From a virus: a stretch of 36,225 nt of DNA. Made by a program: the position numbers and the translations under genes. The stretch is taken from the IMG/VR virus record IMGVR_UViG_3300017964_000039, positions 1 through 36,225 of that record. One strand, 5' to 3'. Position 1 is the stretch's first letter, and each line of letters starts with the position of its first letter. Shown here piece by piece: positions 1 through 35,942 of this stretch. The notes below the pieces were generated by a model. That model ran no database searches, had not been told where the DNA came from, and saw nothing but the letters and a program-made list of their open reading frames with translations.

Positions 1-620
1 ATTCTTGTATTTTCTGCGTTGATTGCATCTCTGTTTTCACGCATTTTTTCCTTGAGTGCCTCTGCCTTTTCTGAAAGTAAGGTAATTCCTAATAACTGTT
101 CAATGATCATTCTCTGATCATTTGGCTTTGAAGCAAGGAATGGTTCAGTGTATGTGTTCAGTGCAAGTATGTGCTTGAACATATCATGGCTCATGCCGAA
201 TAGAGTTTCAATATCCTTCTGCGTTTCTCTGCTATCTCCCTGTGCCTCGTCAGTATCCGTTGGTTCCTGTTCGGTTCCATTGACCGTAAATTTCAATACG
301 TTTGGCTTTCTTCCTCTGTGGATGGAATAATCAATGCCATCCTTTTCAAAATCTATAGTGACCAACATGCCCTTGCCGTTGATCTTGTTAATGAGGTTAT
401 CTCTCTTGATGTTTGTCAGTGCGTTGCCGTAGATTGCATAACTGAGTGCATTGACAATAGTGGTCTTACCAGTGCCGTTTCTGGAACCACTATCGTCACC
501 ACCCAAGTCAAGGTTTTCTCCCAACACAAGTGTTAGTTCTCCCTTGTCAAAGTCAATGGCCTGGGTCTGATTGCCCACGCTCATAAAATTCTTAACCGTA
601 ATATTTTTAATTTTTATCAT
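1..620 (-). CDS. gp46: Recombination endonuclease subunit gp46-like (Rad50/SbcC-type ATPase), partial
   Basis: Only the N-terminal 206 codons are present; the gene continues past base 1. The translation begins MIKIKNITVKNFMSVGNQ, which matches the opening beta strands and the 'NFMSVG' signature of T4 gp46 and other SMC/Rad50-type ATPases. A Walker A motif ends in NGTGKTT (residues 48-54). The usual G-x-N-G-x-G-K-T is split: GEN at 34-36 is followed by a 12-residue Gly/Asp-rich insert (37-48) before GTGKTT. In T4 this subunit works with gp47 to resect DNA ends for recombination-dependent replication and host DNA breakdown. The start ATG (620-618) overlaps the gp47 stop in an ATGA, implying translational coupling. 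The coiled coil, hook and Walker B lie outside the window. Confidence 0.9.
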   Translation of the reverse strand, partial: MIKIKNITVKNFMSVGNQTQAIDFDKGELTLVLGENLDLGGDDSGSRNGTGKTTIVNALSYAIYGNALTNIKRDNLINKINGKGMLVTIDFEKDGIDYSIHRGRKPNVLKFTVNGTEQEPTDTDEAQGDSRETQKDIETLFGMSHDMFKHILALNTYTEPFLASKPNDQRMIIEQLLGITLLSEKAEALKEKMRENRDAINAENTR

Positions 621-1627
621 AGGTCTGAATAAATCTCCGTAAGCATACGCTTGTCGTATGTCTCGCTGTCTAACTGTTCAATCTGATTCATTACGATAGT
701 ATCAACGCTTTCAAACGAAATGTCAATAGGATCAATGTTGCTCTCTATTTCCACCTTTTCAGGAATCAGCATGAGTTCACGCAATTTAAACTGCGGAATA
801 AACTGTTCCTTGATGAAGTTTGCTTCTTCAAATGTAATCTGCACGTCAATCGTTACTCGGGCATGCATTTTTTCTCTAAGATGCTCTTCTGGTTTTTCCA
901 ACAGTTGCGAAAGTTTAAATGTTCTATACACCGGTTGATCTGGCCAAGTCTTGTATTCAGGCTTGCCACCCCACTCCAAGAACATCATGCCACGCTCATC
1001 ATCCCAAGCATCAGCATAGTTGTGCGGAAATGCATTACCCATGTAGGTTACATTTCCTTTTGTCTGACGTTTGTGGAAGTGTCCAGAGAACACGTATTCC
1101 TGATTAACAAAGTGATCCGGTTGCAGTTCTCCGTGATCAGGCATCTCTACCATGGCATTCATTTTAAAGTATGGCAGTTCAAAGTGACCAAACACGTATC
1201 TTGATTTTATATCCTTAACAGTCTTCCATTCTTCTCCCACTAACCACGGAAGTAGTGTAACATCACCTTCTGTGAACAGTTCAGTGATGGGAACAATATT
1301 AGGAAACAGTCTCATAAATTCGATACTGTTAATTTCACGTTTGTCTTTATAAAACAAATCGTGATTACCAACCATAAAGTAGGTTTTCTCGAAAGTGTTA
1401 TTCAGCCTTTCGAGGTTTGAAACTGTATAGTTCATCGTGCTGACATCTGTGGTCGCACGATTGTGGTGCCAGTCTCCTAAAAAGATACAGGTCTCAGCAC
1501 CAGCGGCTTTTGCTTCTTCGCAAAACCATTTAACAAATTCTTCACAATCTATGTTGTGTGCCCGGCTACCACTCTTCATTCCAAAATGGATGTCTGTGAA
1601 GCAGGCTGCTTTCTTAAATAACGGCAT
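617..1627 (-). CDS. gp47: Recombination endonuclease subunit gp47-like (Mre11/SbcD-type nuclease)
   Basis: This is a 336-residue calcineurin-like metallophosphoesterase. All the expected metal-binding motifs are visible in order: DIH (D12, H14), GDWHH (D52), GNHD (87-90), a GHFE (H148) and GHFH (182-185), as in Mre11, SbcD and T4 gp47. The length is close to T4 gp47 (339 residues). With gp46 it would form the nuclease/ATPase complex that processes DNA ends during phage recombination and replication. The start at 1627 is preceded by a clear AAGGAG. The gene lies 42 bases downstream of the gp55-like gene and overlaps gp46 by 4 bases, so the three are probably one minus-strand transcript. Residues after about 220 form the less conserved capping region. 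Confidence 0.92.
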   Translation of the reverse strand: MPLFKKAACFTDIHFGMKSGSRAHNIDCEEFVKWFCEEAKAAGAETCIFLGDWHHNRATTDVSTMNYTVSNLERLNNTFEKTYFMVGNHDLFYKDKREINSIEFMRLFPNIVPITELFTEGDVTLLPWLVGEEWKTVKDIKSRYVFGHFELPYFKMNAMVEMPDHGELQPDHFVNQEYVFSGHFHKRQTKGNVTYMGNAFPHNYADAWDDERGMMFLEWGGKPEYKTWPDQPVYRTFKLSQLLEKPEEHLREKMHARVTIDVQITFEEANFIKEQFIPQFKLRELMLIPEKVEIESNIDPIDISFESVDTIVMNQIEQLDSETYDKRMLTEIYSDL

Positions 1628-1669
1628 TCTTTACTCCTTACTATATTGTAACGGATTGTGTAACAAAAG

Positions 1670-2500
1670 TCAAGATTTTTTCTTTTCACCACGAGGAACA
1701 GTATCGCCATTATCTCTATCAGCATTTTGGCGTGTCCAACTTGGATTCATTCCATTCATTTCCAGTATGTCATCTCGGATGTTTTGATTTCGCTTTTCGA
1801 TATTGATGATTCTTACGAATGAATTGGTTACTGCTGCCGTATAATAAGCAAATGGGTTCTGTGATTTGGATTCGTCAAACTGTAGTCCAATTTGTGCCAA
1901 CTGTAGAATGGCCTGACCCTTCATCTCATCGTTGTAGGTATAGCCTCTCACGTTACCACGTGTTGCGTATCTGTCGCACAGTTTCATCCACATCAGTGCA
2001 AGTTTATTAGTCGCCTTGCCAATCTTTGGATTAAAGCATCCGTTTTCCATACCGCCTTCCCAATGGCTCTTGCCCACGCAGATTAAGTTGTCCTTTTCGT
2101 CAAACTTCCAATGCTGGAATGGAGGAAAGTTAACCTTTACGTGCCTGTCAGCAACAGACTTTTTGGTTTTCTTTCTCGTACTATCCTCGGGAATGTGTTC
2201 AAAAGTCATTATGCGGAAGATTAGATCCGTTTTTTCCATCTTGCGATAATCAATTTCGAACTGCTTTGCGGGAATCTTCTTACCAGCAGCCTCAACTGCT
2301 GCTTCGTGTGCTTGTTTAGATAACCTTGCAGCACGGTTTCTTTTCGCTTCTGCAATGGTTCTTATGTTAATTTTTTCAAGATTTGGCAGGATAACATCGT
2401 ATTGATGATATTCAGGGTCAACATAGGAGCAAAATGTGTTTTTACTGCGATGTATTTCTGCCAATAGGTCCTTGTTTGTTAGATATTTAATTTTTTGCAT
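1670..2500 (-). CDS. gp55: Late-transcription sigma factor, gp55-like
   Basis: A 276-residue protein. Roughly residues 165-245 (around YNDEMKGQAI, NPFAYYTAAVTNSFVRI and NIEKRNQNIRDD) look like sigma-70 region 2 as found in T4 gp55 and cyanophage homologues. gp55 recruits host RNA polymerase to late promoters of the TATAAATA type. It is about 90 residues longer than T4 gp55 (185 residues); the extra N-terminal part is basic in places and begins with NKDLLAEIHRSK, which I cannot assign to a fold. The C-terminus ends in GEKKKS and shows no hydrophobic sliding-clamp-binding tail like that of T4 gp55. An AGGAG lies 12 bases before the start. It is divergent from the baseplate operon and upstream of gp47 and gp46. 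Confidence 0.8.
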   Translation of the reverse strand: MQKIKYLTNKDLLAEIHRSKNTFCSYVDPEYHQYDVILPNLEKINIRTIAEAKRNRAARLSKQAHEAAVEAAGKKIPAKQFEIDYRKMEKTDLIFRIMTFEHIPEDSTRKKTKKSVADRHVKVNFPPFQHWKFDEKDNLICVGKSHWEGGMENGCFNPKIGKATNKLALMWMKLCDRYATRGNVRGYTYNDEMKGQAILQLAQIGLQFDESKSQNPFAYYTAAVTNSFVRIINIEKRNQNIRDDILEMNGMNPSWTRQNADRDNGDTVPRGEKKKS

Positions 2501-2516
2501 AATTGTGAACGTTCTC

Positions 2517-2535
2517 CTAATATTTATTATAATAG
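2517..2535 (-). promoter_or_regulatory. Candidate promoter(s) for the gp55-gp47-gp46 transcript
   Basis: On the minus strand this stretch reads CTATTATAATAAATATTAG. It contains both a host-like -10 hexamer TATAAT (2531-2526) and a T4-late-like AATAAATA (2528-2521), overlapping each other, 20-30 bases before the gp55 start. If real, gp55 could act on its own gene. AT-rich context makes chance matches likely; the divergent intergenic position is the main support. Confidence 0.4.
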
Positions 2536-2549
2536 CACATAATGAAAGA

Positions 2550-2558
2550 AATAAATAG
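2550..2558 (+). promoter_or_regulatory. Candidate late promoter for the baseplate operon
   Basis: AATAAATAG lies 26 bases before the gp48-like start, in the divergent region 2501-2584. It differs from the T4 late -10 element TATAAATA at one position and fits the NATAAATA form reported for T4-like cyanophages. Transcription would start around 2563-2566, leaving a short leader containing the ribosome-binding sequence AAGGAAA (about 2577-2583 upstream region). No host-type -35 is evident. Confidence 0.5.
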
Positions 2559-2584
2559 AGTAAAGATAAGGAAATTTTACCAAA

Positions 2585-3790
2585 ATGGGATTATCGACAA
2601 ATCCGTTAGGAAATTTAGTTTCAAGAGTGTCCACACAGATAAAGTCTGAATCTGCTGAAAAGAAAATACCAGCAACAGACCCAACTGCGGGGTTAACTCC
2701 CTTTAAGGGAACTCTTAAGACTGGAGAAAAATTAAGAAACATTAATGGCAAATCCTTTGTGGTTCCAGCGCCGCAAGGAAACGTTCTTGATAAGGCAAAG
2801 TTGGATCAAACGGTTGCGAGAAATTCAGGAGCATTAGGAAGTGGCCTGAATCAATTTAGTGCAGGCGGATTAAAAGAAAATTTTGCGACCGCAATGGGAG
2901 AAGCAAATAAGGTCATTAGTGATATTCCGGGCGGAGAAAAGTTATCATCATTAACAGATTCAATTTCCGGTTTGATTCCCGATGGTACTGGATTCAGTGC
3001 TGCCGGCGCCGATTTAAGTTCGGCATTATCAAAATTAAGCGGAGGCGATCTTGCAGGTGGAGCCACAGATTTGGCTTCAAGCATAGCCAAGGGTGCAGGA
3101 GCACTCAATGACATATTAAGTGTCTATAGAGGACAGAACATTCCTGCTGATGCAGACTTATTTGCAACAACAGGACAATCAGTTAAGGTACAGCCAACTT
3201 CAGACAATGATTGGAGAGTAAGAATTGATTGTGAATGGCAATATTTTTCAACAGCACTGTTTGATAAACTAAAAGCCACTGGTGGAGTAGTTTTTCCAAT
3301 TCAACCACAGGTGACATTTGCAACCAAAGCAAATTACACTCAACTTGATCCTGTGCATAACAACTATCCTTTCCAGGCATACAAAAATTCTCAGGTTGAC
3401 GAAATTCAAATTAATGGAGAGTTTCCAGTTGAAACAGAACTGGACGCTGCCTATTGGATTGCAGCCACTACTTTTTTCAGAACGGTTACAAAAATGTTCT
3501 TTGGTCAAGGAGAGAATGCAGGCAATCCTCCGATAATATGTGGATTACATGGCTACGGAGCAAGTGTCTTTGATAATGTTCCTGTGGTAGTCACAAGTTT
3601 CAGCACAACTTTCCCAGACGATGTGAACTACATCAAGTGCAATGCATACGGAACCAGTACCTGGGTGCCAGCATTGAGTAACATTACTGTGAATGTTAAA
3701 CCCGTTTACAATAGAAGGAATCTTAGACAGTTTAGTCTTAAGGATTATTCTGCAGGTAAACTTCAAACTAATGGAAGGGGTTACATCTAA
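2585..3790 (+). CDS. gp48: Baseplate tail-tube cap protein, gp48-like
   Basis: A 401-residue protein. Its C-terminal half (about 205-395) carries the conserved tube-cap region of T4-like cyanophage gp48: VFPIQPQVTF, NNYPFQAYKNS, AAYWIAATTFFRTVTKMFFG, PPIICGLHGYG and the C-terminal NRRNLRQFSL. In T4, gp48 sits on the central hub and starts tail-tube polymerisation; its sheath/tube interface resembles tube proteins. Residues about 75-190 form an Ala/Gly/Ser/Leu-rich stretch, probably amphipathic helices, whose role I cannot name. It opens the plus-strand operon with a candidate late promoter upstream, and its stop overlaps the gp53 start by one base (TAATG). No separate gp54-like gene is visible in the window. 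Confidence 0.82.
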   Translation: MGLSTNPLGNLVSRVSTQIKSESAEKKIPATDPTAGLTPFKGTLKTGEKLRNINGKSFVVPAPQGNVLDKAKLDQTVARNSGALGSGLNQFSAGGLKENFATAMGEANKVISDIPGGEKLSSLTDSISGLIPDGTGFSAAGADLSSALSKLSGGDLAGGATDLASSIAKGAGALNDILSVYRGQNIPADADLFATTGQSVKVQPTSDNDWRVRIDCEWQYFSTALFDKLKATGGVVFPIQPQVTFATKANYTQLDPVHNNYPFQAYKNSQVDEIQINGEFPVETELDAAYWIAATTFFRTVTKMFFGQGENAGNPPIICGLHGYGASVFDNVPVVVTSFSTTFPDDVNYIKCNAYGTSTWVPALSNITVNVKPVYNRRNLRQFSLKDYSAGKLQTNGRGYI

Positions 3791-11800: not shown

Positions 11801-12214
11801 GTTTATCATCCAGTAAAATATAAAGTACTGTTTGGATCAGCGGCTACTGAAAAACTTAGAGCACAATTTAAGATAGTCAAGAACCCAGGTAAGACAATTA
11901 ATGATAATAATCTAAAGGTTAGAATTGTTAATGCAATTAATGATTTCTTTGCTATAGACAATTGGGATTTTGGTGATCGATTTTATCTTAGTGAATTAAC
12001 CACATACGTGGTAAACAGTGTTTCACCAGATATAACAAACTTTATTATTTTACCAAGACAGACCGATCAAGTTTTTGGTAGTTTATTTGAAATTCAAAGT
12101 AAGCCTGACGAAATTTTTGTAAGCGGTGCAACGGTTGATGATATAGAAATTGTAGCAAGTATTACCGCTGCTGAGATTAGAGTTGGTGCAAATTCAGTAG
12201 TGAGTAGTACATAA
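8816..12214 (+). CDS. gp6: Baseplate wedge subunit gp6-like
   Basis: A 1132-residue protein, much longer than T4 gp6 (660). The N-terminus (MSTTSRQNNLILNEDWKRIY, then YLALIDAMAFLGQSLAFRID and ERKESVLRIAKMLSYNAKR) is characteristic of gp6 in T4-like marine phages, and IDLIFADGVYGNLPQG (about 339-355) is the typical gpJ/gp6 baseplate motif. gp6 dimers form the ring that joins wedges. Residues about 819-827 read DNDDDGVVD, which fits the calcium-loop pattern DxDxDGxxD. The extra length lies in the middle and looks beta-rich. The stop overlaps the start of the giant gene by one base (TAATG), suggesting coupled translation and stoichiometry. Confidence 0.9.
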   Translation: MSTTSRQNNLILNEDWKRIYQTFQQADFKSYDFENLRRVMITYLRENYPEDFNDYIESSEYLALIDAMAFLGQSLAFRIDLASRENFIELAERKESVLRIAKMLSYNAKRNVPSKGLLKFTSVSTSENIFDSNGRNLAQQVVRWNDPTNTNWAEQFILILNAAMSNNTEYGRSQGSDTIQGIPTEQYRFRTVTDDVPIFTFNKTVAGRNMAFEIVSTGFAESEEIYEEAPTPGNQLGFVYRQDGKGPGSSNTGFYLMFKQGSLEVADFNIDIPTTNEVLSIDTENINNDDVWLFSLNSLGGQQNQWTKVSSLAGNNIAYNSLVGNVRDIYAIETKENDTIDLIFADGVYGNLPQGSFRTYYRVSNGLQYVISPNEMKGINVSIDYFNRAGAQHTLQIGLELQNTVTSASASEDIDSIRENAPANYYVQNRMITGEDYNLAPLSGSQNILKVKAVNRTSSGISRNFDIVDASGKYSSVNVFADDGYVYKEENERNLNFKFSNTNDIINFIRNSVEPLFTDNDVYNFYLTKFDKILFTEQNTVWTEVTSDINQTTGYFNNAIDFSLLKVGNYATNTLKYLKIGANIKFVPPSGQAFKQGKLVTADSTDPEQRSYIWTKVVNVVGDGTNAGRGSLSSGLGPITFNENIPTGAIASKIVPKFVSDLNSALESEMVTQVAGNLNFGLRYDNISSSWKIVQTQNLDLTSSFSLGRAGDTSNENLDASWIMAFVRNNDQYVVRVRTMDYVFGSVQQNRFYFDKSEKAYNNLTGQVIKDHIKVLSINSDTNSQNSLGKDYTFEISDSIEFEDGYESTKEIKLSFSDNDDDGVVDDPETFEAIAGDDLELNFLFFEEKRDQYGTKYYDIIDNSNNTILVYQKQSLIDINQFDDGQLIYFYDSAENKVKSVNRTTNTLELQSQYKAVYGRRNLKFQYIHAASEDRRIDPSLTNIIDMYILTRSYDTSYRNYLLGVETKPDEPTTDGLRIEFGSNLGEIKSISDEIVYHPVKYKVLFGSAATEKLRAQFKIVKNPGKTINDNNLKVRIVNAINDFFAIDNWDFGDRFYLSELTTYVVNSVSPDITNFIILPRQTDQVFGSLFEIQSKPDEIFVSGATVDDIEIVASITAAEIRVGANSVVSST

Positions 12215-15200
12215 TGGCAGATAGAGTATATCCAAAGAGCCAACTTCCAATTAGAAGAACTTCTGACTTTCTTCCGAATGTCTTTAGATCCGACACCAAT
12301 GATAAGTTCTTATCAGGTGTTGTTGATCCTTTGGTACAACCGGGCGTAGTTGAAAAACTTTCCGGTTATGTTGGTAGAAGGTTTGGTAAGACCTATAAGG
12401 GCAACGACATTTATCTTGACAGTGATAACACCCTAAGAAGTAGGTATCAACTTGAGCCCGGCATAACCATTGAAAAGAATGATCAAGTTGAAAAATTTTA
12501 TGACTACCTTGATTTAAAAAACATGCTTTCATTCTTCGGCAATAGCATCGAGGATGATAGCAAGACAACCAATCAGGAACATTACACATGGAATCCACCT
12601 ATTGATTGGGATAAGTTTATAAACTATAGAGAATACTTTTGGGTTCCTTCAGGACCTCCATCAGTTGCAGTATATGGACAGGCACAAACAGTAACAAGTA
12701 CCTACAAGGTTAACACTGGTATTGCGTCGACGTGGGTGTTTACACCAGACGGAGCAACAAACAATCCAGATATTAAATTATACAGAGGACAGACCTACAA
12801 GTTCAAGGTTAACAGTCCTAATGAAAGTTTCTATTTAAGAACAAATTATGACACAGGATCACTAAACTATAATCCTTTGATTACATATTTTCCAGGACAA
12901 CTTGCGGTCTATGATGGCAAGTTGTGGAGAGCAAAGGTAGAAATTTCTCCCGCGGATGGTAGCACAATTGATGTTGATAGCCAAGATTGGGAATTAGTAG
13001 ATTCTAACGCATCTGTTGATACATTAATATATTCAAGTGGTGTAACAAACAATGGAGTTAGGGTAGGGGAATTAACTTTTGAAGTTCCTCAAGATTCTCC
13101 AGATGTGTTATACTATCAGAGTGATATTGATCCTAACAGATTAGGAAGATTTATAATTGCTGATATAGACAGCAATACCTTCCTTGATGTTGAAAATGAA
13201 ATTATCGGTAAAGAAAATTACAACAGTTCAAATGGTGTAGAATTTAGTAATGGTATGATAGTTGAATTTCTTGGAACGGTCACACCAGCAGTTTATGCAG
13301 AAAATAAATGGCTTGTTGAGGGAGTGGGCGACGAGATTAAACTAATCAAATTCTCTGATCTTATTCCACCTACACTGACTGGAGAAACACCAGAAGTGTT
13401 ATTTGATAACGAAGGATTTGATACACAACCGTTCGATGATGCTACTCAATATCCTGCCGTAAAAGATTATATATTAATAAACAGGGCCAGTGGTGATTCT
13501 AATCCTTGGTCAAGATATAATAGATGGTTCCATAGATCAGTTCTTGAATATGCATTTAGATCAAGAGGTGACGACTTTGATGCTACTGAAGCATCAAGAG
13601 CCAAGCGACCGATTATAGAATTTAATAAAAATATTCAACTTTTTAATCATGGTCGTAATGCAAAACAAACTGTTGACTATGTTGATGATTATACAACAGA
13701 TATTTTTTCAACCATTGAAGGTAGTAAGGGTTATAACATTGACGGCGAATTTTTATTTGAAGGAGCAAGAGTTCTTGTTGTTGCTGACACAGACAGTTTA
13801 GCAAATAATAAAATCTATACCGTAAAATTTATAACACACAATAACAATAGACAGATAACTTTACAAGAAGCAACTGATTCAGTTTCAGCATTCAATGATT
13901 GTGTTCTTGTAAGAAGAGGAACAAGGAATGCTGGAAAAATGTTCCACTTCAATGGAACTTCTTGGGTACGAAGCCAAGAAAAACTAACTATAAACCAATC
14001 TCCACTTTTTGAAGCATATGATGAAAATGGAGTTTCGTTATCCGATCCAGAAACTTATCCAGTTAGTTCATTCTTAGGAACAGAAATTTTAAAATATAAA
14101 ATTGGTAACAGTGTTGCTGACAAAGAACTTGGTTTTAGTTTATCTTATTTGAATATTGATAATGTTGGTGACATACAGTTTGAATGGACTTGGGATAAGG
14201 AAACATTTACATATAACTTGGACAATCAAGACCAAACAAAGAATGTTAATACAGCATTTTATTTTGTTAATGGAAACTATGCTAACGGATGGGCAAAACT
14301 TGATAACACATACATTCAACCAATAATTGATTCAGTTGTATTAACACAGGACACAAATGAAGTTGTGTTCAACACTATTGACTGGAATAATTTCACTGAT
14401 AATACAAAAATAATTTTTTATAAAAATGGTGAAAAAGTATTTTCAACTTATACAAGGACAAAAAATACTTTTGTATTTGATGAAACATTTGCAGAGAAAG
14501 ATGTTATCTCACTAAAAATAGTAGATAGCAATATTGTTCCTGATCAAGGATATTATGAAATACCTATCGGCATTGAGAGAAATCCATTAAACCAAGGACT
14601 GGGAGATTTTACATTAGGTCAGGCAGTTGATCATGTTAGAAGTGGTCTTGAATTTATAGATTCGTTTACTGGAGAATTTGTTCCAGGAAATTCAAATTTA
14701 AGAGATTTATCTGGTTGGCAATTGCACGCCAAGAGATTTATTAAACATGCCGGCATAGCAGCAGCCAGCGTGGCAGTATTGGTTGATAAACAATCTAATA
14801 TAATTAAATCCTTACAATATTCTTCCAAGCAATATTCTTCATTTAAGGAAAATTTCCTTAAGAAAGCACTTGAATTAGAGTTTGAAGAATCAATTCCTGA
14901 TTTTGTTGATAGGATTATTGAGGATTTAACCAAGACAAAAACAATTGATAGTCCGTTCTCTGATTCGGATATGATAGGTACTGGCGCATTTAATGGGGTG
15001 GAATACACAGTTGAAGATCCAGGAATTGTTACCTTTACTCTTTCTGAAAAATTCGATCTAAGCACATTAAGCAGAAAGGCAGTTTATGTTTACCTGAATG
15101 GTGCACAGTTATTACACGAAAAGGATTATACATTTAATTCTGCATTTGGATTTGTAACCATCACCAGACAGTTAAGCGTGGGTGATAAGATTGAAATTAG

Positions 15201-18200
15201 AGAATACATTTCTACTGCATTTTCTCATATTCCACCAACTCCAGCAGCCATGGGATTATACAAGAAATATACTCCTATGAAGTTTACGGATGATACCTAT
15301 CGCCAACCAAGAGAAGTAATTCAAGGTCATGATGGAAGTATCACAGTGTCGTACGAAGACTACAGAGACGATCTTCTGTTAGAACTTGAATATAGAATTT
15401 ACAATAATATAAAAAATAATTATGATCCACAGGTATTTGATGTTGATGAAATTCTTGGTGGATACTATGGAAATGCAAACTTTACCAAGGATGAATTTGA
15501 TAACATCATCAATCAACAATTTCTTAGATGGGTAGCAAATACAAATCTTGAATACACAACTAATTCTTACTTCATAGAAAACGAACCATTCACTTATACC
15601 TATAGTAATATGACTGATCCTGCGGGAACAGAAAACTTACCAGGTTATTGGAGAGGAGTGTACAAGTACTTCTATGATACTGATAGACCACATCGCTGTC
15701 CTTGGGAATGTTTAGGATTTTCAGAAAAACCTACTTGGTGGGAAGAGGAATACGGTCCTGCTCCATACACCAGTGGTAACTTGATACTTTGGGAAGATAT
15801 TAGAGACGGTATTATCAGACAGGGGCCTCGTGCTGGAAGATATGATAGATATGCTCGAACTTCGATAATGAATCATCTTCCGGTTAACAGCGACGGAGAG
15901 TTGGTAAATCCTCTTGATAGTGGATTAGCAAAGAACTTTACTCTTGTTAATAATAGAGGTAGTTTTAAACTTGGAGATATTTCACCCACTGAGTATGCGT
16001 GGAGATCAAGTTCGGAAGAACCATATGCAATGATAATTGCATTGTGTTTATTGAAACCTTTTGATTTTATTATTTCTAATTTTGATAGAGCAAAAACAAC
16101 AAGAAATATTCTTGATCAAATTGTTGATATTGAAACAAAAACATTCATCACTCCGAATGAATTAAAATTACCTGTTGCTGGTACAAATCTTGTTTCAGGA
16201 TTATCCTTTTATGTAACAGCATATCTAAAATCAAATGGTGTTTCAGTAACACAGGCACAGGATATAATTGATGGATTACAAGTAAGACTAACATCAAGAT
16301 TAAGTGGATTCGTTGACAAGGAGCAACAAAAATATATACTTGACAGCAAAAATCCAAGTTCTTCAAATTCAAGCATTTTTGTTCCACAGGAAAATTACGA
16401 TATTATCTTTAATGTAAGTGCACCGATAGGTAGCGTTACATACAGTGGTGTTATAATTGAAAAAACGCAGACTGGTTGGGCATTAAATGGATATGATGAT
16501 ACGTATCCTTACTTTAACTATTACACTGCTGTCAACAATCAAAAAGATCCAGTAATGAGCGTTGGCGGAATCAGTCAGTCGTTCACGGAGTGGCAACCAC
16601 AAACAAAATATAATAATGGAGCAATCGTTGAATATAGAAACACTTATTATAGAGCAAAACAATCTCTTGAAGGTGTTGACGAATTTGATGGTAACGATTG
16701 GGTTAAATTACCTGAACTACCATTAATTGATGCAATAACAGCACAGCGAAGAAGAAATTTTAATAAAACGGTTGTTAGAAAATTAAGTTATGGTGAAACA
16801 TTACCAACGGTTCAAGCCGTGGTTGATTTCCTATTAGGATATCAGGCTTATTTGATCGACCAAGGAATTATTTTTGAAAATTACGATCCAGAAAATCAAG
16901 TCGTACAGGACTTTGTCACAGCCTGCAAGGAATTTATGTTCTGGACCAAACATAACTGGGCAATTGGTTCTTTATTAACAATTTCTCCTGGTGCAGTACA
17001 AATTAGAATAGCAGTTCCTGTTGGTGTTGCTGATAATATTCTTGACGGCTTTTATGATTATAATGTTCTTAAAAGTGACGGAACTCCTATACAGGTTAAG
17101 AACATCAATGTAAAACGTGATTTCCAAAACGTAACGGTGTCCACGGTTGACACCGATGACGGAATATATTATCTAAAAATTAATTTTGTATTAAAAGAAC
17201 ACGTAACAGTATTCAAAGATAAGACAGTCTTTAATGATATAATTTTTGACAAACCAACTGGGTATCGTCAAGAAAGAATTAAAACACAAGGATTCAGAAC
17301 CATCGATTGGGATGGCGATTATACATCTCCTGGATTCCTTTTTGATAATGTTAAGATTGAAAGTTGGTCACCGTTCACTGATTACAGACTTGGTGACATC
17401 ATACAGTACAAGACAAAATACTTTACCAGCAGATACAATCATACAAGCGATAAAGAATTTAATGATGATAATTGGACGATACTTGACTCCAATCCAGAAA
17501 AACAACTTATTGCTAACTTTGATTATCGAGTAAATCAAATAGAAGATTATTTTAATGTTGGTTCTCAAGGACTTGGAAAGAGCCAAAGAGATCTTGCCAG
17601 ACATACAATAGGATATCAGCAGAGACAATATCTACAGTATCTTGCTGAGGATGAAGTGACTCAGTACAAATTGTATCAGGGCTTTATCAGAGAAAAAGGC
17701 ACTAATAATTCGATTACTAAACTGTTTAATAAGATTAGTAAGTCTGGACAATCAAGTGTATCACTTGAAGAAGAGTGGGCATTTAGAGTTGGACAGTTTG
17801 GTGGAATAGATCAAACCAATGTTTATGAAATTAAATTAGATACCGAAGAATTTGTTCTTAATCCTCAGCCTATATTAGTAGTTGATTCCAAACCTAACCA
17901 ACCACTTGATCGTTATTACAGAGTTAATAAGTCTGATTTTTATTATGCACCAGTTCCTTACACTACTGAAATATTACCAACAACAACTGATCAATTGGTA
18001 ACAAGAACAGCAGGATATGTTAAGACAGGTCAAACGGCACACGTTGTTAAGAACAAGAGCGATATATTAAACATCAACATTGAAGAGTTTAATGAAAATG
18101 ATCATGTCTGGATTACTTTCAATAATTTATCGTGGACTGTGTTAAGAGGAAATGTAGTTTATGATCTTCCAGTTGACAACATATCTTCGAAAGGAACAAT

Positions 18201-21200
18201 AGTTACAGTTACCTTTGGTAAAAAACACAATCTTGTTCCGGGCGATATAATCGGTATTACTAACATAGAAGGAATAATAGGTTTCCATGAAATAGTGGAA
18301 TTAACACAGACTATTGAAGGAACAACACTGAATGAGAATTTATCAATTCAATTTATTGTAGATCCTGCTCCAGAAATATCCTTTGATGCGAGTTCGTTAA
18401 CTTTTCCTATACTTTTCACAGAAGCAAGGTTTGCAGATTATGATAGTTTACAACCAGAACACGTTGCATTACTAAGAAACAATTCAAAATTGTTTGTCGA
18501 TAAGAATGCTGACGGGTTATGGGAAGTTGTTCAAAAGAAAAAACAATATCAATCTAAGAAAATAACAAATTATGGCATAACTGATCCTGTCAAGACAGGT
18601 TACAAGGTTGAATATGCTTCAAATTATAAACAGGTAATTGCTTCGATTCCAGGAAGTGGATACGTCAATGTCTACATTGAAACAAATCAAGGGTTGTCAG
18701 TTAGACAGATTCTTGAGCCACAAAGCGGATTAGAAACCACGGTTAATGGATCGTTTGGTTACGAACTTTCTTTAAGTCCTGATCAAAAATACTTGTTTGT
18801 TGGATCTCCACTTGCAAGTGGTGTTACATCAAATTATAAAGGATTGTTTAGTCCTTATGCAACATACGCTCCTGGAGACATCGTTCTTTATGCAGGAAAT
18901 TTATGGAAATCATTAACAACAAATGTTGGCGATGGAAGCACAATTGATTTAGAAAATAATGATTGGGAATTGACTAAAAATATTTCAGCACTATCATCGG
19001 GATCAGAAACAGGTCCTACGCAACAGGGTGCTGTTTCTGTTTATGAATGGAATGCTCAGCAATGGAATTACGTAGAAAGTTTTGTAAGTCCAAGACCAAA
19101 TGAATCAGAAAAATTTGGATCTAAGATTGTTTGTGGTAAGACAGCAAACGGTTATACACTTGCTATTAGTGCTCCAGGATCAATCAATAACAAAGGAAGG
19201 GTCTATCTTTACACACAAAACACAGACGGTGAGTGGGAATTGATAGAAGATGAAAACTACAAAGGAATTTATAATTCTGGTGTTGCATTTACAGGATCAA
19301 TCAATGACAATGTATTGACAGTTACCGACGTAGCATATGGTAAGATAGTGGAAGGTGCAATACTTGAGGGTTCAGGAATTACTGCCGGAACAAAAGTGGT
19401 TTCACAAACACAAGGAATTAAAGGTAGCACAGGAACTTATACAGTTGTTCCTTCATACGATGCCGTGGGATCCAATCCAGCGCCAATCGGAAGCACAGCA
19501 ATAACAGGAACATATTATTATCCTACGGGTTCAATAGTTTATGTTGATGGTTTTCTTTGGAAAGCAACTGCAAACAATTATAGCGATGGAAGCACGATTA
19601 GCATACAGAGTGCTGATTGGTTAAAGGTTGATGAAATAGCAACACAATCATCATTACCACAAAGCATGAGCATAGAGGATGACGGATCAACACTTTCCGC
19701 TGGAATATTAAGTGATACACAGATTTCAGAATTAATTAAGGATGGTGATCGATTTGGAATGAGCCTATCAATGAACTATGATGGTTCGGTATTAGTAGTA
19801 GGAGCACCATATGCTGATGGTCAATTCTTTACCAACTTTAAAGGACCATGGGATCCTAACTATGAATACGTAGAAGGTGATGTTGTAAAATACCAAGGCG
19901 GCTATCATAAGTTAATTAATGCTGGTCCTACAGCAGTCGGCATTGATAGTACAATTAGAAGTTATAACCAAGAACCCGATGCTGGTCTTCCTTGGTCGAA
20001 TGTTGGCGACAGCAGTGCTGAAGCAACAGGAAAAATCTTTATCTATAGAAAAGACATCAACGGTTTTTACAAATTAGATCAAACTATCACAACTGAAGGT
20101 CTTGAATTTATAAGTGACATTGATCCATCTGAAACAATAAGCACAGGAGATCAGTTTGGTTATGACATGGACATTGATTATTCTGGTAATACATTAGTAG
20201 TTTCGAGCCCTAAGGCAGATAGGAATTTCCAAAATCAAGGAAGTGCTTACATCTTTAAATATGAAAGCGATAGTTCAGAATTACAATTTAGATTAAAACA
20301 AAAAATTGAAAGTTATGACATTTATCCTAATGAGTATTTTGGCCAGAGCGTATGCATAACACCTAATACAGAAAAATTAGTAGTAGGAGCAAACAATAGT
20401 CCTTACTCATTACCAACTCGATTTGATTCTTCAACAACAACATTTGATGACGGAGTGACTTCATTCAAGAGTTACGATGGTTTTTCTGGTGCGGTTTATG
20501 TGTTTGAAAGAAAAGACGAAACATATTTCTTAGCAGAAAAACTTGATGAGGATCTAAGCCTTAATGAATCATTTGGTTTTAGTCTTGTTTGTGATACAGA
20601 CACAATAGTTGTAGGATCACCAGATTATATAGAACCTGCCCCCCACGGTCCAGGACTTGCATTTGAAGGATCTAAAGTGGGTAACGTAAGACTGTTCAAA
20701 AAACAGTCAGGAATCAATTCATTAGAACTTATCGGTCAGGAAGAGCCTACAGTTGATATTAGAGATCTAAAACGACTAACATTGTATTCTGATTCATCAA
20801 CAAATAAGATACAGGATATCGAAATAATAGATCCAGCCAAAATGAGAATATTAGCAGCGGCTGAAAGAGAAATAACATTTAAAACATTGTATGATCCTGC
20901 TGTTTATTCTGTGGGAAATCCAGATAATCAAATTGTTGATAGCGATACAGCATGGACGACAAAGAACGTTGGAAAACTTTGGTGGAACATTTCCACAGTC
21001 AAATGGGTATACTATGAACAGGGAGATACTGCTTATAGAACGGCGAATTGGGGTAAACTTGCAGAAGGTTCCACGATTGAAGTTTCTGAATGGGTTGAAA
21101 CAAAATTACTTCCAAGCGAATGGGCAGTTCTTGCAGATACCACTGAAGGATTAAAGAATGGCATTTCTGGAACACCACTTTATGATGATTCAGTTTATTC

Positions 21201-24200
21201 TATAAAAGAATTATTTAATGTTAACACTGGTGAATTAACTGAAACATTATATTACTATTGGGTTAAATCTAAGGTAACCGTTCCGAACATAAGTGGAAGG
21301 ACAATATCAGCAGCCAACGTTGGAGTATTAATTGCTGATCCTAATTCACTTGGAAATACATTTACAGCATTAATAGCAAAAGACAAATTTTTATTCTACA
21401 ATTATACATCTTTGGTGAATGAAAATTCTACAATATTAAACTTTGAATTTTATAAAAATTCTCCTATCAGAAATGAAGTTCATAATGAATATCAATTGAT
21501 CACGGAAGATGTTGCAGACAGTGTACCAACGCCTAAACTTGAAAGAAAGATGATAGACTCTTTGGTTGGTTATGATATACAAGGTAACAGAGTTCCTGAT
21601 CCTGATTTACCAGAAAAACAAAAGTATGGAATCAAGTTCAGACCAAGACAGAGTATGTTTACCGATAGAAGAGGCATACTAAAAATTATTATTGAAAATG
21701 CAAACAAGGTTTTACAGAAACAGCCGTTTGCTAATATAATTAGTTTTGAAAATTTAAATTTAAAAGACGAACAGCCAAGTAACTTATTAAGACTTTACGA
21801 CACAAGCGTTTCTAATTATATCGATCTTGAAACAGTTGGTACGGTTAGAACTAAGGCTGGCCAGTTATCAGTTAATATCATAGACGATGAAATATCTTCC
21901 ATAGACGTTGTTGATCCAGGATTCGGATACAAAGTTGCTCCTAATGTAGAATTTGAAGGAGACGGTGAAGGCGCTGTTGCCACAACAACTATAGACAATC
22001 AAGGAAGAATTACTTCGGTAACCGTTAACAATCCTGGTAGAAATTACAAAACTGCCATTGCCAAAGTAAGAAGATTTAGTGTTCTTGTTGAAACTGATTC
22101 AACTTCTCAAAACTATTGGTCGATATATGCTTGGGATGACATAAGACAAACTTTCTTTAGAAGTGCTTCGCAGGCCTTTGATACAACAAAATATTGGTCA
22201 TACATAGATTGGTGGAAAGAAGGTTACAGCGAAACAACAAGAATTATTAAGGAAATTCCATCGGTAGCAGAACTTCCTGCCAATGAAGAAAGTATTTCTG
22301 TGGGAGATTTGATAAGATTCAAAGAATATGGTTCGGGTGATTGGGCAGTATTCAAGAAAATATCCGATACATCCACAAGCATACTTTCTAATTATGAATT
22401 AGTTGGTAGAAAAAATGGAACTATCAAACTTGAAAATACTTTATATGATGTTGGAACAACAGGAATAGGTTATGATAATGTTACTTCCTTTGATACCAAT
22501 TTCTATGATAGAGAGCCTATCAACGAATTAAGAAATATTTTTACAGCATTAAAACAAGATGTATTTGTCGGAGACTATACAGTTGAATGGAATAAATTAT
22601 TCTTCAGTTGTGTTAGATATGTATTACACGAACAAGTTTATGTTGATTGGGCATTTAAAACCAGTTTCTTAAATGCTACGCATACTGTTGGAGAGTTGTT
22701 ACAAACTCCAAACTATAAGAACGATAGTCTTGATCAATATTTGAATTATATTGACGAAGTAAAACCTTACAGAACAACAATTAGAGAGTACGTGAGTAAG
22801 TATGATAAGACTGACTATCAATATGCGGGAAGCACAGACTTTGACCTTCCACCTGCATACTTACAATCAAGAGGAAAGATCACAAGAATAACAGAAATAG
22901 ATCCAGAGATAACAGAATATCCATACAAGTGGTGGTTAGATAATAAGGGATTCTCAGTAACGGAAGTTTTAATATCAAATCCAGGAAGTGGTTATACCAG
23001 CGTTCCTCGTGTTGTAATTGAGGGAGATGGTACTGGAGCAAAAGGACAGGCTTATGTTTCAAACGGAACAGTATCAGGTGTAGTAATTACCAACCCAGGA
23101 TCGGGTTATACAGTAACACCTACAATTGCATTGGTTGGTGGTAATGGAAGTTCCACAGATAAAGCAAAAGCAGTTGCGGTGCTTGGCGATACAAAAGCGA
23201 GAGTGTTTAATCTTGCTATGAAGTTTGATAGAATTACCAAAGAAGGATTGTATTCATTCACAGACTTTGAACAAACATTTACGGCAACTGGCACAACTTC
23301 TGTCTTCGAATTAAAATATGCTCCAACAAGAGACAAGTCTAAGATACAAATTATTAAAAATGGAGAAATTGTTCTTAATAGCGAATACTCCATAACAATC
23401 TACAGATCAAATGACGACGAGTTTAAGATTCTTAAAGGAAAAGTTGTGTTCAATGAAACACCAACTGCCGGTGATATAATAGAAATAGAATACGAGAAGA
23501 ATGATGAACTTCTTGATGCAGTTAATAGAATCAATAAACTTTATAACCCTGTATCTGGAATGAAAGGAAATGACCTTGATCAGTTAATGACTGGTATTGA
23601 CTTTGGTGGTGTTCAAGTCCAAGGAACAACATTTGATGTAACTGGTGGTTGGGACGCACTTCCTTGGTTTACTGACAGTTGGGATAGTGTCGAAGCAGCA
23701 AGTGATTATTATCATGTTTGTGATGGTAGCACAGAATATGTTGAACTACCTTATGTTCCTACAGAAGGGCAAAGAATTAATATCTATCTAAAGCGTGCTG
23801 GAGAAGAAGTTTTACCAACTATAGATAATTTACAGTATGGTCCTGGAGTAAAATCTCCACCAATTAGAAGAATTGATTCTCCGTACTTCCTTGACGGAAA
23901 TGATTCTTCCACTGGTCCTAATCCAAATGCAGAAATGCCAACATTTGTTGGAGATGGTTCAACAAAAACTGTTGAGATAGGAATATACATTACAACTAAT
24001 GATGGTGATATATTAATTTTCCGTCCTGAAACCAGTGATGGTTCAGTTACAATTACTGATGATAATCTTGTTGATACAAATATCTCAGGTGGTAGTTTAA
24101 GTATAATGGAAGGAGCCTACGCAACAGCAACAGGAAAAACCGCAGAAGAAATTAATTTAGAAGGCGGTAGATTCATAGGACCTGAACAGGTTCCAGCAAC

Positions 24201-26220: not shown

Positions 26221-26223
26221 ATA
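26216..26223 (+). promoter_or_regulatory. Candidate late promoter at the end of the giant gene
   Basis: AATAAATA overlaps the TAA stop of the giant gene. A transcript starting about six bases after it would begin near 26229. That would make the ATG at 26228 unusable and leave the ATG at 26249 with a short leader. This could give separate expression of the small structural protein and the fibre cluster. The stop codon itself supplies part of the motif, so chance is a real possibility. Confidence 0.4.
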
Positions 26224-34172: not shown

Positions 34173-35942
34173 ATGGCATACCAAGTAGACAAATTTAATG
34201 GAACATTTTTAACGTCAGTTGAAGACGGTACTATCGATACAACTACGGATTTAAGATTCGTAGGTAAAAATTATGCTGGGTATGGCGAAGTACAGAACGA
34301 GAATTTCCTGCACTTATTAGAAAATTTTTCCAATACATCTGCTCCACCAAAGGTTATTGAAGGGCAGATTTGGTACGATAGTGGAAATAAGAAACTAAAA
34401 TTTTATGACGGAACCAAGTTCAAGTCAGCAAGTGGAGCAGAAACAAGTCCTTCTGCACCAAGCGGATTGGGTACTGGTGATTTTTGGTGGGACACCGCCG
34501 CTAAACAATTATATGCCTGGGACGGTGCAGCATTTGTCCTGATTGGTCCTGAAGCATCTCCGGATCTTGGAGCCAGCGGTGTAACAGCACAGGTTGTTAA
34601 GGACACCGGTAATACCAATCATTCAATCTTAAAAGTACAGGCAGGCGGTAAAACTGTAGCCATTATTTCACAAACAGCATTCACACTAAATTCTTCGGTC
34701 AATCCTATTGATGATTTTACTTTAATCAAGAAAGGAATAACGTTAGCCAAGACGGATTCAAATGGTATTAGTGCTGACGATTACGTTTACTGGGGAACAT
34801 CTTCCAATTCATTAAAACTTGGTGGAGTTGCCGCAGATCAATTCTTGCAAAAAGGCAGTATCACATTTACTTCAACAATTGGGTTTGAAGATGCTGGTTA
34901 CACAGTTGGTGATCAGAATGATTTAAGAGTTAGAGTAGAGAATGATGATGAAATAATCATAGAATCAGTGCTTGGTAATGATATCAAGATGATTGTAACA
35001 GACTCTGGTGTAACAAGAAAAAATATTGCAAACTTTTCTGTAACTGGTATTATTCCAGGTGATAACAATTCATATGATCTTGGATCAACAACCAAGAAAT
35101 GGGCCGAGGCATATGCAACCACATTCATTGGTGACCTAACAGGTGATGTGACAGGAAACACAACAGGATCTCACACTGGTAATTTATTAGCAACAGACAC
35201 TACCGTGATGATCAATGCAACTTCAAAAGAAATTGGTTATGCAGGAGCAACACTAAAAGGAACACTAATTGGTAACGTAAGTGGTAACGTAACAGGAACT
35301 GCATCAAATGCGAGTACACTTGGTAACGTTTCACCATCAACTGCATTGCCGGCAACCGTTGACAAAACATCTGTTCCTGTAAGAGATGCATCAGGTAATA
35401 TTGCAGCGACTCAATTTGTGGGAATTACTGACAAGGCTGACAGATTAAAAATTGATGACTCAGCAACAGATACTGATCCAAATTATAAATCTGCAAAAAC
35501 AACTGCAACTCCAAGCACGATTGCAGCAAGAACTGCTGCCGGAGACATTTACGCTAATCTTTTCCAAGGAACAGCAACCGCAGCAAGATATGCAGACCTT
35601 GCAGAAAAGTATTTGACAGATAAGAATTATGACTATGGAACAGTAGTTAAGGTAGGTGGTTCCACAGAAGTTACCGCGGCAGGCGAAGGCGACAGAGCGA
35701 TAGGTGTTATATCACAATCTCCAGCATTCATGATGAACTCACACTTGGCTGGAGGTCAATTTGTTGCATTGAAAGGAAGAGTTCCAGTTAAAGTAACTGG
35801 TGCTGTTAACAAGGGCGATAGGCTCGTAGCAGCAGCGGACGGAACTGCAAAATCATCGAATTCATCGCCTGATGTATTTGCTATAGCATTGGCATCAAGC
35901 GACCAAGCAGAAGTAAAATACATTGAAGCGGTAATTCTATAA
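34173..35942 (+). CDS. Fibre-like structural protein 4 with processing-type C-terminal domain
   Basis: A 589-residue protein with the shared N-terminal domain (KNYAGYGEVQNENFLHLLEN, EGQIWYDSGNKKLKFYDG, GDFWWDTAAKQLYAWDG). The middle has YDLGSTTKKWAEAYATTFIG, GDLTGDVTGNTTGSHTGN and GNVSGNVTGTASNAS, close to motifs in fibre protein 3. The C-terminus (about 470-589) begins ADLAEKYLTDKNYDYGTVVK, followed by DRAIGVISQSPAFMMN and VALKGRVPVKVTGAVNKGDR. It resembles C-terminal domains of several phage fibres and appendages in which a self-cleaving, trimer-locking module occurs (Peptidase_G2/IMC type). No catalytic residues are assigned here. The stop overlaps the next start (TAATG). Confidence 0.75.
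   Translation: MAYQVDKFNGTFLTSVEDGTIDTTTDLRFVGKNYAGYGEVQNENFLHLLENFSNTSAPPKVIEGQIWYDSGNKKLKFYDGTKFKSASGAETSPSAPSGLGTGDFWWDTAAKQLYAWDGAAFVLIGPEASPDLGASGVTAQVVKDTGNTNHSILKVQAGGKTVAIISQTAFTLNSSVNPIDDFTLIKKGITLAKTDSNGISADDYVYWGTSSNSLKLGGVAADQFLQKGSITFTSTIGFEDAGYTVGDQNDLRVRVENDDEIIIESVLGNDIKMIVTDSGVTRKNIANFSVTGIIPGDNNSYDLGSTTKKWAEAYATTFIGDLTGDVTGNTTGSHTGNLLATDTTVMINATSKEIGYAGATLKGTLIGNVSGNVTGTASNASTLGNVSPSTALPATVDKTSVPVRDASGNIAATQFVGITDKADRLKIDDSATDTDPNYKSAKTTATPSTIAARTAAGDIYANLFQGTATAARYADLAEKYLTDKNYDYGTVVKVGGSTEVTAAGEGDRAIGVISQSPAFMMNSHLAGGQFVALKGRVPVKVTGAVNKGDRLVAAADGTAKSSNSSPDVFAIALASSDQAEVKYIEAVIL

Follow-up and report, generated by a model that had tools for sequence, protein, structure and literature searches.

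A gp55-type late sigma factor of a jumbo-phage lineage with an inserted domain and a C-terminal tail without a clamp motif

The textbook example of late transcription driven by the replication clamp is bacteriophage T4. Its late sigma factor, gp55, ends in the clamp motif LDFLYEAND, the loss of which weakens clamp activation, while the tail of gp33 is essential (PMC2988020, PMC7892883); gp55 without its C-terminal region is still able to bind, open and start basal transcription (PMC7892883). In the part cited here, a 2010 review describes the hydrophobic motif as retained in gp55 homologues, with a figure that includes S-PM2, which is outside the proteins compared below, and singles out the aromatic residues Y10 and W23 of T4 gp55 (PMC2988020), and N13 was reported to contact the adenine at -9 (PMC7892883). 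The E. coli sigma70 (group 1) carries an insertion between region 1.2 and region 2.1, and this non-conserved region is described as touching DNA at -16/-17 and beta' and as aiding promoter escape (PMC7403470).

The window analyzed here is the whole of a 36,225-base virus record, itself a fragment, and it encodes a protein whose family and role are already known and annotated. The jumbo-phage late sigma factors of phrog_12791 (CBB_244, RaK2 F403_gp453, Atu_ph07 gp694, and Paride_0446) have the same length class, N-terminal segment, insertion, and core, and gp47 adjoins most of their genes, as it does in the window; the only difference is the KKKS/KKKT end, which is confined to the window's own clade. 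The insertion, the lineage-wide loss of the clamp tail, and a polymerase-adjacent clamp are not described in the cited parts of the open literature, a scope that leaves preprints and subscription papers outside.

The sigma gene occupies positions 1670..2500 of the window on the minus strand and encodes 276 amino acids. Its product is matched by phrog_12791, "sigma factor for late transcription", over residues 2-260 (E 8e-78) and by the late-sigma family phrog_234 over residues 161-261 (E 3e-22), and Pfam gave no match up to E 1. The best solved relative by sequence is T4 gp55 (7d7c_F; residues 146-237, E 3.2e-5). With an AlphaFold2 model of the whole protein (m10f6a070bf78; mean pLDDT 86.1, pTM 0.75), the same chain ranked first in Foldseek (E 1.1e-3, rmsd 1.5 over 88 columns) and in VIA-align (Z 13.9, rmsd 4.0, 120 aligned, model residues 5-261 to chain residues 10-152), the next entries in the latter list being sigma factors. 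Both comparisons and both PHROG families agree on a sigma-2 homology domain of the T4 gp55 type, placed at residues 148-260 (1721..2059, minus strand), with modelled helices at residues 165-179, 190-207, 216-248, and 253-260, among which a long and a short helix resemble the helix-loop-helix of T4. The original prediction of a late sigma factor in this open reading frame was thus borne out, and in comparison with sigma70, the protein leaves no room for regions 3 and 4, to which it shows no match.

Relatives are numerous. A tblastn search matched 377 phage records, 56 of which cover at least 80% of the query, with PA5oct-like Pseudomonas phages (approximately 51%), Phosso (44%), Atu_ph07 (38%), and the RaK2/CBB/121Q types (approximately 38%) at the top, and at least 599 stretches in IMG/VR encode relatives, of which 80 loci were analyzed. 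The window protein represents the gp55-type late sigma factor of a phage from the jumbo lineage comprising PA5oct/Paride, Atu_ph07, Phosso, and RaK2/CBB; some lineages have longer forms (SCTP-2, L203). In two loci (L182, positions 1572-3407, and L183), gp55 is split by an intein-like stretch of approximately 330 residues inside the RNA polymerase-binding helix (RGNWRGY / C...TGN / TYLDEM); Pfam LAGLIDADG_3 matches this stretch weakly (E 0.007, below its cut-off).

The surroundings of the gene follow the pattern of the lineage. The next gene in the same direction is gp47 (SbcD-like; 617..1627, minus strand; phrog_100, E 7.1e-63), and an open reading frame running off the window at 3-620 is read as gp46 from its sequence and place. 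On the other side, the sigma gene diverges from virion and baseplate genes, as judged by PHROG matches, beginning with a presumably late virion structural gene at 2585..3790 on the plus strand (phrog_12050, E 4.6e-40), and at this place the annotations of Paride, CBB, RaK2, and Atu_ph07 also give a virion protein. Paride, CBB, and RaK2 are annotated with gp55, gp47, and gp46 in this order opposite virion and gp53-like genes, and the arrangement recurs in 121Q under other gene names. In Atu_ph07, a small gene separates gp47 from gp46; in Phosso, other genes come first after gp55; in Vibrio phage 2.275.O, the third gene is labelled a coil-containing protein; and the genes next to gp55 in SCTP-2 depart from this order. 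Farther along the window, an open reading frame of 4668 aa with FG-GAP_2 and CBM_5_12 matches lies among the virion genes (12214-26220), and another at 34173-35942 has tail-fibre PHROG matches and a match to the self-cleaving Peptidase_G2 domain below the cut-off (E 2e-4).

Residues 1-21 (2438..2500, minus strand) correspond to segment 1 of gp55. In a ten-sequence alignment, window residues 4-16 (IKYLTNKDLLAEI) pair with T4 gp55 residues 8-20 (YNYVNNKELLQAI), YVNNKELLQAI of T4 standing against YLTNKDLLAEI of the window protein, with Y6 and N9 at the places of T4 Y10 and N13, and the alignment restarts at T4 W23, which equals W147. Among 60 non-redundant proteins, N9 is found in all 60, Y6 in 59, and W147 in 58. 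The stretch in between, approximately 126-130 residues long (residues 22-147; 2060..2437, minus strand), is absent from T4 gp55, and its borders are good to a few residues since T4 residues 21-22 fall inside the alignment gap. What had been predicted as an N-terminal extension of about 90 residues is therefore a longer, internal insertion behind a conserved segment 1.

Residues 21-150 are modelled as a mixed alpha/beta unit with ten-residue pLDDT means of 84-95, and the insertion has invariant positions across the 60 sequences (e.g., R96, H102, P104, N124, and F125). When the model is aligned with E. coli sigma70 (6ca0_F; VIA-align Z 10.7, model residues 5-235 to chain residues 109-446, 92 aligned), the insertion separates the 1.2-like segment from the sigma-2 core, as in sigma factors with a non-conserved region, and from this topology, it is assigned to the place of that region. 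The alignment covers the topology of the whole protein and says nothing on the insert's own fold, and the likeness to the non-conserved region is one of position. This unstudied domain sits where primary sigma factors carry a variable region, and it may have a role in transcription.

With T4 gp55, the protein shares segment 1, the sigma-2 core, and the presence of genes 47 and 46 nearby; most promoter-contact residues are kept, but those outside segment 1 give a mixed picture. Across the 60 proteins, E192, F208, and T221 (T4 E70, F86, and T99) are each invariant, Y219 (T4 Y97) is kept in 59, and R181 (T4 R57) is Arg in 53 and Lys in 7; T4 H95 is replaced by F217 in all 60 and L54 by Y178 in 54, and the counterparts of D74 and E77 are mostly changed. 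A late-promoter-like element, AATAAATA, lies 35 nt before the virion gene that starts at 2585 (2550..2557, plus strand) and is kept in 46 of 51 relatives, that is, the 60 proteins minus nine distant ones. Allowing at most one mismatch, TATAAATA points toward the virion gene in 49 of 57 intergenic stretches and in the other direction in 20 of the 57, against a mean of 22.5 and a maximum of 33 over 200 mononucleotide shuffles, which ignore relatedness; this sample represents 57 of the 60 alignment proteins, L197 being left out with a start found 11 nt away and L073 and L202 with short upstream DNA. Across the whole window, neither AATAAATA (3 seen, 5.1 expected) nor TATAAATA with one mismatch (66 seen, 79.9 expected) is enriched. 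For late genes of a relative, ATAAATA was proposed by the authors of the CBB study (PMC5259590). Facing the sigma gene, an extended -10-like element, TGCTATTAT, is found at 2529..2537 on the minus strand; its pattern, TGCTAT[AT]AT, is kept in 39 of the 51 relatives (shuffled mean 0.23, maximum 2). The sigma factor would bind the clamp helices of the host RNA polymerase (beta') and would read and open AATAAATA promoters before virion genes, the reading being suggested by the conservation of the T4-contacted bases at -12, -9, and -8 and of several contact residues. Another AATAAATA at 26216-26223 on the plus strand, at the end of the 4668-aa open reading frame and just before the next gene, is a possible second late promoter.

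The protein ends in a polar tail (residues 261-276; 1673..1720, minus strand) that closes with RGEKKKS and is predicted to be disordered, residues 264-276 having pLDDT below 50. Neither of two clamp-motif patterns tried matched anywhere in the protein, including the tail; a hidden motif in the insertion was considered and rejected, there being no pattern match and the hydrophobic residues 95-98 forming a strand in the model. A rule for the T4-type motif, applied to the last 14 residues, was fitted by 32 of 34 distinct T4-like proteins, one of the 32 with the odd end MIHGTMIWLR, and the two misses carry LDAFYEL or LDDFYEL just upstream of the scanned end. It was fitted by none of the 66 distinct jumbo proteins of a first scan and by 12 of all 86, and these 12 rest on MKML, MKMM, or LNMI, helix-like strings in charged tails of the RaK2/CBB type that were rejected as T4-type motifs. 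The polymerase-type pattern F..[LFM]F was found in the last 20 residues of none of the 86 distinct jumbo gp55s. The polar, Lys-rich end and the missing clamp tail were both as predicted, the latter being lineage-wide, and a clamp motif elsewhere in the protein, which would have told against that prediction, did not appear.

Proteins without this tail are also found in cyanophages. The gp55s of S-B64, P-SSM2, ACG-2014f, and S-CAM22 (157-178 aa) keep segment 1, lack the 126-residue insertion, and are likewise without a T4-type clamp tail. None of 52 distinct S-B64-like cyanophage proteins, all from loci that are close kin of one query, fitted the T4-type rule, and inspection of tails by eye showed no T4-type motif in P-SSM2, ACG-2014f, S-CAM22, or SeSz-1, GLSFLEDD in Aeh1, and the end KGLLDIE in phiN3. 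A short gp55-like family (L204-L210; 149-156 aa) has tails such as SVFDSMSLDN, which look more like clamp motifs than those of jumbo gp55s do.

The lineage retains a sliding clamp beside its DNA polymerase. Jumbo phages of this kind typically load a PCNA-type clamp, according to the cited part of a survey (PMC7824862), and the cited part of the CBB study reports no gp45 detected (PMC5259590). PF02916 matched none of 12 jumbo records, and phrog_223 matched one of them, in an open reading frame of Vibrio phage 2.275.O (E 1e-5), plus one control genome. Counterparts of this open reading frame lie next downstream of the DNA polymerase, among open reading frames of similar size, in Paride, RaK2, Phosso, and two further records (G002 and G004). 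A 12-row clamp model, which includes these five and leaves out five other named phages, matched 10 of 17 records at E 2e-34 or better, namely, all eight named jumbo phages (seven labelled complete, Vibrio 2.275.O partial) together with G002 and G004; it gave no match in five fragments, T4, or S-B64, nor in the 36-kb window fragment. In all eight named phages, the clamp gene is on the same strand as the polymerase-domain match and downstream of it. The predicted clamp structure, of modest confidence (pLDDT 66.8), resembles PCNA (Foldseek E 5.6e-11; VIA Z 16.0, rmsd 3.7, 219 aligned of 245), profile-profile comparison with a shallow T4 gp45 set gave a probability of 1.9%, and sequence searches of Pfam and the PDB gave no match. 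Paride also has an annotated clamp loader, which matches phrog_168. The Paride clamp is Paride_0113 (L112, 43190-43936), annotated as hypothetical, with homologues of approximately 245-260 residues in CBB, RaK2, 121Q, Atu_ph07, Phosso, Vibrio 2.275.O, and SCTP-2; Paride_0086, 0091, and 0095 had also been considered and were dropped.

The polymerases next to these clamps keep hydrophobic ends. A long open reading frame ends just upstream of the clamp in 79 of 80 IMG/VR clamp loci, and 58 of the 59 that are distinct by their last 200 residues end in F..LFDF followed by one or two residues. Hydrophobic-acidic polymerase tails occur in seven of the eight named jumbo phages (Paride HFDSLFGW, Phosso TFNDLFTF, Vibrio TDLFDW, CBB NTGFFEW, 121Q NNGFFTW, RaK2 DFGFFS, and SCTP-2 FHEIFVEDDD), the end of Atu_ph07 lying outside the comparison. 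In contigs carrying both genes, the gp55 and polymerase ends contrast directly: YQGKEDS and TFNKLFDFE (L066/L359), GGGDWD and TFSKLFDFE (L065/L413), and GSDWD and TFAKLFDFE (L052/G004). No such pair came to light in the window's own clade, of which the window and three contigs, all of them fragments, yielded no clamp.

The protein is an ordinary late sigma factor with a changed coupling anatomy: segment 1 at the very N-terminus, a folded insert of approximately 126 residues, a T4-like sigma-2 core, and a disordered tail without the motif. The best explanation as a whole, on which our confidence is evenly divided, is a jumbo-lineage gp55 with an inserted domain whose tail lacks the clamp motif and serves as no tether; less surely than the anatomy, the tail of this sigma factor does not appear to link RNA polymerase to the sliding clamp. 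The original prediction went further, to uncoupling from replication or a different contact. Its premise, the missing tail, stands, but uncoupling does not follow, since T4 gp55 works, though less well, without its tail, where the loss weakens activation only, and a clamp is present in the lineage. Little coupling, with the inserted domain giving an extra contact to RNA polymerase or DNA, is modestly favored over an undetected gp33 or another clamp contact because no gp33 was found and because the insert is conserved where sigma70 uses such a region. Counted against the best explanation are the changed T4 contact residues and the lack of enrichment of AATAAATA in the window; in addition, the DWD/DFD end carried by 28 of 86 gp55s might make an unrecognized contact with the clamp or another protein, gp33 may be too divergent to detect, and tail loss need not mean uncoupling, the tail being non-essential in T4.

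It is possible, if somewhat unlikely, that T4-like coupling is kept through an undetected gp33-like partner with an essential clamp tail, the gp55 tail having been lost as the dispensable one of the two. This would suit the T4 case, in which the gp33 tail is essential and that of gp55 is not, as well as the clamp and clamp-tailed polymerases of the lineage, and the cited part of the survey reports a gp33 orthologue in group 2 jumbo phages (PMC7824862). PF16805 and phrog_254, however, found nothing above chance in 12 jumbo records, and a gp33-like partner, which would have told against the original prediction, did not appear; the weak matches (E 0.014 to 0.032) stayed short of the cut-off and control hits came in 7 and 4 of 14 genomes, respectively, while T4 (both models) and S-B64 (phrog_254) scored at 6e-28 or better; S-B64 has detectable gp33 and gp45, unlike the jumbo records with respect to gp33. 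The protein is short (112 aa in T4) and highly variable, so that a short divergent gp33 could escape such family models, and the failure of phrog_254 to find gp33 in the window shows little for a 36-kb fragment. Two candidates were not taken for gp33, namely, a weak match in a 93-aa open reading frame of Phosso and, by judgement, a protein of 57-76 aa that ends in LPFF or LPIL and is encoded next to the baseplate hub gene. A search for clamp-type C-termini also speaks against a hidden partner: of 17,034 open reading frames, excluding those cut by piece borders, 905 fit the pattern, and the large recurrent group judged real is the polymerase (84 members), although a six-member gp53-like group fits as well; the other recurrent groups look by eye like short or antisense frames.

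It is less probable, and on the whole unlikely, that gp55 touches the clamp in some other manner, through acidic-aromatic or Lys-rich tail ends or through the surface of the insert. The 86 jumbo tails comprise 28 acidic-aromatic, 15 Lys-rich, and 43 other ends; GSDWD-like ends recur behind variable Gly/Ser linkers and KKKS/KKKT ends stay within one clade, both as short linear motifs do, in a lineage that has a clamp. Yet neither kind of end has the hydrophobic pair seen in the polymerase tails of these phages, 43 of the 86 proteins carry neither, and a tree of 82 distinct rows, for which the program warned that long branches meet, requires at least 13 changes of tail type; the Lys-rich end is found in 12 of the 82 rows, all in one 16-row clade together with four other tails. 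A test of end conservation was discarded as evidence since it was circular, the tails having been chosen by their ends. Finally, a lineage-specific addition outside transcription initiation, such as a contact with a host or phage regulator, is a highly improbable role for the inserted domain, for although its tie to RNA polymerase or DNA is inferential and the protein is longer in SCTP-2 and L203, its conserved positions in 60 sequences and confident folding speak for a retained function, and its location next to the segment that reads the promoter speaks for a part in initiation.

Building on little coupling, a larger and rather doubtful reading is that the lineage has kept the clamp and clamp-tailed polymerases and dropped the gp55 tail and perhaps gp33, and that its late sigma factor has acquired, where sigma70 has its non-conserved region, a domain that makes up for the lost assistance in opening promoters; activation of late genes would then need no moving clamp. 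Hundreds of members of the lineage are represented among public contigs, and some, such as Sharanji, for which E. coli K12 MG1655 is given as host, are in culture; their sigma factor is without the clamp tail and their polymerase keeps it, and this combination makes the generality of replication-coupled late transcription directly testable.

Other possible clamp contacts were seen in Paride, where the terminase large subunit and a DNA polymerase III fragment, encoded by the pair of open reading frames at L111 1-1596 and 15226-15828 (in one or the other order), end in MPMPFLF and DPFKLFS, respectively.
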